A stretch of DNA of 64,000 nt from Synechococcus sp. HK05. GTDB lineage: Bacteria; Cyanobacteriota; Cyanobacteriia; PCC-6307; Cyanobiaceae. How positions within the stretch are numbered: position 1 is the first letter of the stretch; each line of letters opens with the position of its first letter. The position numbers and the translations under genes are program-made. Location: positions 372,001 through 436,000 of the forward strand of contig NZ_JAHRXJ010000011.1 in NCBI RefSeq assembly GCF_019104765.1, read 5' to 3'. This document shows, piece by piece, positions 21,096-33,818 of this stretch. Under the pieces are notes generated by a model. That model made no database searches. It was given only the letters and a program-made list of their open reading frames with translations, and had not been told where the DNA came from.

Positions 21096-21109
21096 GTAGC
21101 CGTTGCTAC
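21096..21109. promoter_or_regulatory. NtcA-type box (GTA-N8-TAC) between mobA and nrtP
   Basis: GTA (21096-21098), 8 bases, TAC (21107-21109) matches the NtcA consensus exactly and is palindromic, so it could serve nrtP, mobA or both. No TAN3T-like -10 was found 22-23 bases away on either side, which weakens the call. A second, imperfect box (GTA-N8-CAC, 21169-21182) has a TGCAAT hexamer 23 bases downstream at 21206 and is an alternative nrtP promoter. Confidence 0.55.
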
Positions 21110-21306
21110 GGATGCTTCCGGCTTTGAGGGCCGCGTTGGTTGTTGGTCTCGCGATGCTCGCTTGTTTTGTAGCAGCCGCCACATCTCGAGGCCTCTGCTG
21201 GGTGGTGCAATCCCTGCAACGGTTTGCATTGGCGCCGTTGCATTGCCTATCCCGGTCGCTGCTGTTCTGAGGGCCAGGGTTCGTCTCGTTCCATCGAAGC
21301 TCGTTC

Positions 21307-27172: not shown

Positions 27173-27233
27173 GCCGGTTATCGCTAAAGCTGGGTCTCAA
27201 CTGCGATTCTGCGCGCCGATGGGGCGGCTTCTG

Positions 27234-27247
27234 GTAGCGATCGCTAC
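27234..27247. promoter_or_regulatory. Perfect NtcA-type palindrome between TrpD2-like gene and cynS
   Basis: GTA (27234-27236), GCGATCGC, TAC (27245-27247) fits the NtcA consensus exactly and lies in a 20-base perfect palindrome (27231-27250). The spacer is also the HIP1 octamer. On the minus strand a CAGAAT hexamer (27206-27211) follows at 22 bases, the spacing of NtcA-activated promoters. On the plus strand no good -10 was seen at that distance. Confidence 0.7.
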
Positions 27248-27375
27248 CAGAATGATGCGGCCTTCGGTTGCAACGGCTGCATTGTTGAGGCCTTGGGTCG
27301 GGCGATTCTTGAAACCGGAACGGCGCTTTTTTCTGAGCGTTCCGTTGCTGTTTTGCCGCAACTGCGGCTTTTGGT

Positions 27376-31628: not shown

Positions 31629-31642
31629 GTTGCTGTTGCTAC
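31629..31642 (-). promoter_or_regulatory. NtcA-like box upstream of nirA
   Basis: On the minus strand this reads GTA-GCAACAGC-AAC, one base off the GTA-N8-TAC consensus. A TTAATC hexamer (31599-31604) lies 24 bases downstream, close to the usual 22-23. A second variant, GTA-N8-CAC, is at 31667-31680. nirA is NtcA-activated in other cyanobacteria, which supports the call. Confidence 0.5.
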
Positions 31643-31743
31643 GAATGCCCCTGGCCTTGGGCAATGGTGTCAACCGCTACTTGAGAAGGGCGCGTCATCC
31701 GAGTTGATGATGCGGTTCTCAGGTGCTCGTTGTGAGCCGATCT

Positions 31744-33804: not shown

Positions 33805-33818
33805 GTAACCAACGCTAC
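33805..33818. promoter_or_regulatory. NtcA-type box (GTA-N8-TAC)
   Basis: GTA (33805-33807), ACCAACGC, TAC (33816-33818) matches the consensus exactly, in the divergent region between the 125-aa hypothetical gene and the cupin-like gene. No good -10 was seen at 22-23 bases on either strand, so chance is possible. Confidence 0.35.

Follow-up and report, generated by a model that had tools for sequence, protein, structure and literature searches.

The gap of 203 bp between two divergent genes in the genome of Synechococcus sp. HK05, one encoding a TrpD2-like protein and the other a cyanase, contains a long perfect palindrome with an exact match to the NtcA pattern GTAN8TAC. This raises the question of which of the two genes the palindrome serves, and whether it is an NtcA site or an expanded copy of the HIP1 repeat that lies at its centre. 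The surrounding 64,000 nucleotides of HK05 DNA, referred to below as the window, were analysed and compared with related genomes. The reading preferred here, with a probability of about three in four, is that the gap holds two back-to-back class II promoters which would be activated by NtcA, and that the palindrome is the strong box of the minus-strand gene, cnaT.

Genes and genomic context

The names given to the two genes in the initial annotation, TrpD2-like on the minus strand and cynS on the plus strand, agree with their family matches (Table 1). The TTG start of cnaT aligns with ATG in two relatives (G089 and G068). Nearby genes encode an MFS transporter, a molybdopterin reductase, a formate/nitrite transporter, a NIR_SIR protein and a Nitr_red_assoc protein; the first, second and fourth of these are called nrtP-like, narB-like and nirA-like here, names taken from their families and from the layout in Synechococcus WH7803. 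Both cnaT and cynS are thus located in a nitrate cluster, and its layout matches that of WH7803, where the cluster also includes cynS and cnaT (PMC9430850, excerpt). NtcA itself is encoded in the HK05 genome (375 bits, cut-off 245).

Table 1. Coordinates of the genes and predicted elements of the cnaT-cynS region, numbered from the first base of the window
Feature	Position	Strand	Basis
cnaT (NF005635/PRK07394), 361 aa	26087-27172	-	510 bits, cut-off 287
Putative cnaT -10, CAGAAT	27206-27211	-	N22 from box 1
Perfect 24-bp palindrome, TTCTGGTAGCGATCGCTACCAGAA	27229-27252	none	sequence
Predicted NtcA box 1, GTAGCGATCGCTAC, assigned to cnaT	27234-27247	-	exact GTAN8TAC and conservation
HIP1 octamer, GCGATCGC, box 1 spacer, judged incidental	27237-27244	none	sequence
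Putative NtcA box 2, GTTGCAACGGCTGC, assigned to cynS	27267-27280	+	profile score and comparison
Putative cynS -10, GATTCT	27304-27309	+	N23 from box 2
cynS, cyanase, 160 aa	27376-27858	+	family match

In WH7803, cnaT is described as a positive regulator of the nir operon with predicted NtcA sites; for Nostoc PCC 7120 it is cited as a positive element in the expression of the nirA operon (PMC9430850, excerpt). The printed cnaT site string, GTTCAGCCAGCAAC-N22-TCTGGT, was found in two of 400 family genomes. One of these two loci, L211, contains the canonical cnaT box and the cynS site printed for WH7803 as well, and was therefore taken as WH7803. The protein that follows the printed cnaT sites in L211 is 64% identical to HK05 CnaT and is encoded divergently from cynS (81% identical). 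By sequence comparison, the HK05 minus-strand gene is a homologue of cnaT. It had been suggested that a nitrogen-controlled TrpD2 member would be new; given this identity, the same divergent layout and the NtcA sites already predicted in print (PMC9430850, excerpt), nitrogen control of the gene is not a new idea, though it is a prediction.

Other NtcA-like sites were seen in the window. Before the nrtP-like gene (21307) lie GTAGCCGTTGCTAC (21096-21109) and GTAGCAGCCGCCAC with TGCAAT 23 bases further on (21169-21211), a pair which resembles that of the WH7803 nrtP promoter (PMC9430850, excerpt). Upstream of the nirA-like gene, on the minus strand at 31629-31680, a pair of sites (GTAGCGGTTGACAC and GTAGCAACAGCAAC) is NtcA-like except that the right halves are imperfect, and a further exact GTAN8TAC, GTAACCAACGCTAC (33805-33818), precedes by 18 bases a minus-strand ORF of 125 aa (33786-33409). 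One genome of the same genus (G149, 99 percent complete) has no cynS match and a weak match to the cnaT family (E 6e-21), and has possibly lost the cnaT-cynS part of the cluster.

The palindrome and its conservation before cnaT

The 20-base palindrome of the initial annotation, CTGGTAGCGATCGCTACCAG (27231-27250), with its exact GTA-N8-TAC and HIP1 spacer, is present and forms the core of a larger palindrome of 24 bp. This is the longest in the window, where the runner-up has 16 bp; when the window was shuffled 40 times with dinucleotides preserved, the longest palindrome measured 14-20 bp, and 0.011 palindromes of at least 24 bp are expected in the window from base composition. Exact matches to GTAN8TAC occur four times in the window against an expected 0.38. 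They occur at 44 places genome-wide and the reversed-pattern control at 349, but this control is a different motif (CATN8ATG) and is little informative.

PRK07394 matches above the cut-off were obtained in 132 of 151 family genomes, and upstream DNA was used from 101 of those 132 (HK05 and 100 more). In 28 of the 101, cynS adjoins cnaT divergently, and 25 of these 28 carry a strict box within 200 bp before the cnaT family match (shuffle mean 0.24, maximum 2). The three which do not are G065, with GTAN8AAC instead, G129 and G037. A strict box also precedes cnaT in RCC307 (L002), a relative in which the layout is the same. Of the 73 genomes in which cynS is not adjacent, six have a strict box before cnaT (shuffle mean 1.05, maximum 4) and 23 have the form GT[CT]N8TAC (shuffle mean 2.6, maximum 7). 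A NAnnnT is present at N22/23 after only four of those six strict boxes and after six of the 23 others, so that the full cnaT promoter is not clearly kept in the non-adjacent set.

The minus-strand CAGAAT reported at 22 bases from the TAC is exactly there, reading from 27211 to 27206. Relatives have CAGAAT, GAGAAT, GAAAAT or AAnnnT at N22/23. Near-identical promoters were removed for the box 1 tests (25 to 13 toward cnaT, 25 to 14 toward cynS) and for the box 2 test (28 to 18). Of the 13 non-redundant promoters, 12 have NAnnnT at N22/23 toward cnaT, with at most four at non-overlapping spacings, whereas toward cynS it is present from box 1 in three of 14, with up to five at unrelated spacings. 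The form NAnnnT was settled after the promoters had been viewed and these counts are therefore not blind to the motif; the spacing of 20-24 bp was known before the test (PMC6331805, excerpt). This difference between the two directions at class II spacing indicates that the palindrome is mainly the box of cnaT. An insert lengthens the cnaT-cynS gap in some genera, and in these long-gap genomes box 1 stays beside cnaT.

In a class II NtcA promoter the -10 element lies at 20-24 bp from the box (PMC6331805, excerpt). Box 1 has the full GTAN8TAC with its candidate -10 inside this range, at N22, and the -10 sequence itself departs from TAN3T, as CAGAAT is CAN3T. Such departures were accepted for WH7803 promoters (PMC9430850, excerpt). 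With a conserved predicted box at class II spacing, the palindrome is very probably an NtcA site, as first proposed. The accompanying proposal that it points to both genes equally survives on one side: the spacing toward the TrpD2-like gene is that of a class II promoter, but there is no conserved -10 toward cynS, which seems to own a separate box. A cynS -10 taken straight from the palindrome (TTGCAA near N20) was considered and rejected, as NAnnnT has no consistent spacing there among relatives.

A second, degenerate box before cynS

A box profile was built from the cnaT boxes and two window sites, and 60 shuffles were made per genome. The best further site before cynS in HK05 is GTTGCAACGGCTGC, which scores 6.7, the shuffle 95th percentile being 4.9. 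Of the 28 genomes, 20 have a corresponding cynS box that exceeds its own shuffle 95th percentile, and in eight the box falls short; forms seen in relatives include GTAGCAACGGCTGC, GTAACAAAGGCTGC and GTAGCAAGCGTTGC. Among the automatic picks, NAnnnT is found at N22/23 in 15 of the 18 non-redundant adjacent genomes, and in up to six at unrelated spacings. Box 2 strings chosen by eye were not the top profile match in G101, G095, G053 and G024, and differ from the automatic picks in G004, G076, G095, G053 and G024; the automatic run repeats the test.

Nine of the 18 adjacent cynS promoters contain the pattern GTAN8TGC, in each case with NAnnnT at N22/23; the shuffle mean of the complete element is 0.09. 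HK05 is outside these nine, its box 2 departing from the consensus on both sides (GTT...TGC). For cynS promoters that are not adjacent to cnaT, 40 of 49 family genomes were taken, of which 33 were non-redundant. Seven of the 33 have GTAN8TGC, all seven with NAnnnT at N22/23 (shuffle mean 0.03) and five with TAN3T at N22; two of the seven (G016 and G048) belong to one genus and have an identical box. The pattern is absent from the other 26, and because it was fixed after these promoters had been viewed they form a separate set, not a blind one. Comparison patterns in the same 33 gave three cases of GTAN8TAC (one with a -10), one of GTAN8TCC (with a -10) and two of CGTN8ATG (none with a -10), and the N7 spacer, the N9 spacer and the mirror form gave none. 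Among the 18 adjacent promoters there is one GTAN7TGC, without a -10.

Outside the family, four of 40 cynS regions from other cyanobacterial families contain GTAN8TGC, and neither TAN3T at N20-24 nor NAnnnT at N22/23 accompanies any of them. GTAN8TAC was found in eight of the 40, of which G160 alone has TAN3T at N22; G198 and G236 each have a near-box with TAN3T. In other cyanobacterial families cynS is often inside an operon, and true promoters may therefore have been missed there.

When compared with class II promoters, box 2 lacks the exact GTAN8TAC, as do the relatives that often have GTAN8TGC, and its candidate -10, GATTCT, which is degenerate like that of cnaT, lies within 20-24 bp, at N23. 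Together these comparisons suggest that cynS has a putative degenerate NtcA box of its own. A literature search, which included the excerpt of PMC9430850, found no earlier mention of GTAN8TGC as a cynS box. The predicted 5' leader of cynS also contains an inverted repeat, GGAACG...CGTTCC, around a T run (27316-27350), which is kept in G044 and G104 and not in the other aligned members of the genus.

Could one site serve both genes?

The strongest competitor to two promoters is that the palindrome is a single shared site which activates both cnaT and cynS. The distance between box 1 and cynS is constant, at 142-143 bp, in eight short-gap genomes, which means that box 1 may help cynS. The starts of boxes 1 and 2 are separated by 33 bp in HK05 and by 32-33 bp in ten short-gap genomes, which belong to two genera. 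This is about three helical turns and would suit an upstream helper. However, the class II -10 toward cynS is not conserved (the three of 14 given above), and in the long-gap genomes measured the starts of box 1 and the cynS box are 234-315 bp apart; with spacings as different as these, the two boxes can work separately. Furthermore, a site like box 2 occurs without a strict box 1 in G037 and, more doubtfully, in G129, where it lies much nearer cynS than in other genomes and may be due to chance. A helper role for box 1 is possible, and a single shared site is unlikely.

HIP1 at the centre of the palindrome

It is far less probable that the palindrome is an extended HIP1 element without a regulatory role. 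HIP1 is enriched in this DNA, with ten copies in the window against 3.1 expected and 384 genome-wide against 32 for the reversed pattern, and HIP1 was non-functional upstream of the Synechocystis scp genes (PMC6331805, excerpt). Against this, the copy in box 1 is flanked by eight symmetric pairs, while the other nine copies in the window have none or one, and it is GTA and TAC which are conserved and not the HIP1 spacer, for which reason HIP1 was also rejected as a functional element of the site. The initial annotation treated the HIP1 core as a feature of the site; it is found in one of the 25 strict cnaT boxes. The boxes of G044 and G104 (GTAGCGGTCGCTAC) differ from that of HK05 by one base, and from this comparison the HIP1 core looks incidental, a coincidence of one base change.

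That GATC methylation within HIP1 tunes NtcA binding at the cnaT-cynS promoter alone can hardly be credited: GATC does lie at the exact centre of box 1 and other cyanobacteria are known to have the GATC methylase DmtA, but this core is in one of 25 strict boxes, and the HK05 genome (99.97 percent complete) has no match to PF02086, PF01555 or PF00145, so that the switch is rejected as regards these three methyltransferase families, in agreement with the exclusion of picocyanobacteria from the near-ubiquity of DmtA (PMC4390886, excerpt).

The CnaT protein

The TrpD2 relationship had been taken to raise the possibility of DNA binding, a role ascribed to YbiB (PMC10123104, excerpt). The profile scores of CnaT are 105.5 bits for PRK09071, 98.6 for YbiB and 68 for trpD, all under the cut-offs and leaning to TrpD2. 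By sequence, its matches to TrpD and YbiB chains in the PDB are about equal, the best being a TrpD. The predicted fold is TrpD-like (mean pLDDT 84.6), and with this model all of the structure matches listed (50 of 128, E up to 0.001) are anthranilate phosphoribosyltransferases. CnaT is predicted to be acidic, with a pI of 6.0 (5.9-9.3 over 27 aligned relatives, some with cut ends). Taken together, the acidic pI, the even sequence matches and the listed TrpD structures do not back the idea of DNA binding, a role which CnaT may still have.

The catalytic motifs of TrpD are named GTGGD and KHGN. CnaT has neither, with MPFDGR and QGAGRMPVKYG in their places, and MPFDGR and RMPVKYG are strongly conserved at these positions. 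According to our own count on the alignment, Arg123 of the positively charged YbiB groove corresponds to the invariant Lys140 of CnaT, and Arg92 of that groove to a variable residue flanked by basic ones.

Proposed regulation and significance

Boxes, spacing and conservation were established by sequence comparison, and from them we infer NtcA occupancy, start sites and activation. Under high 2-oxoglutarate, NtcA would bind box 1 and recruit RNA polymerase to CAGAAT, with transcription of cnaT starting near 27199, and the degenerate box 2 with GATTCT would serve cynS, with a start near 27316. Two such promoters would mean that nitrogen limitation turns on cnaT and cynS jointly, so that CnaT, as a regulator of nitrate assimilation, and cyanase would be switched on together.

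A more speculative extension, which we put forward tentatively and consider rather doubtful, is a coherent feed-forward loop. NtcA would activate cnaT, and CnaT, with its TrpD fold and conserved non-TrpD pocket, would license the nir genes; in short-gap genomes the two boxes, three helical turns apart, would bind cooperatively, coupling cnaT to cyanase with its weaker GTAN8TGC box.

The palindrome box is ordinary in kind and the gene behind it is already tied to nitrogen control. What is added is modest: a conserved cnaT -10, a two-box divergent layout and a cynS box. If correct, this places the NtcA boxes of cnaT and cynS in picocyanobacteria, and gives the canonical cnaT box a -10, which the WH7803 study did not recognise (PMC9430850, excerpt). 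It would also reveal a GTAN8TGC cynS box that is missed by searches for GTAN8TAC, and open NtcA control of cnaT, a nitrate regulator that is poorly understood, to direct testing.

Comparison with known systems

The sequence likeness to E. coli YbiB/TrpD2 is distant, with YbiB chains matched at 43-44 bits; the HK05 protein differs in being acidic, in its conserved MPFDGR and RMPVKYG and in its location in a nitrate cluster. The HK05 box resembles those of class II NtcA promoters (GTAN8TAC, 20-24 bp, TAN3T) in its exact match, its 22-bp spacing and its target in a nitrate assimilation cluster, and differs in its perfect 24-bp symmetry and degenerate -10 (CAGAAT).

A third close system is the cnaT-cynS region of WH7803, in which a homologous cnaT is also divergent from cynS and preceded by a canonical NtcA box; the gap is longer in WH7803 and the box spacer is different. 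There the canonical site lies 57 bp before the cnaT translation start, the authors recognised no -10 for it and picked a different NtcA site for cynS, and the cynS transcript was up 274-289 fold relative to ammonium (PMC9430850, excerpt). In L211, AACACT lies 22 bases beyond the canonical cnaT box and has the same form as the HK05 -10, and GTCGTCATTGATGC-N22-GAACAT precedes cynS. Comparison suggests AACACT at N22 as the cnaT -10 of WH7803, and a GTN9TGC box for its cynS.
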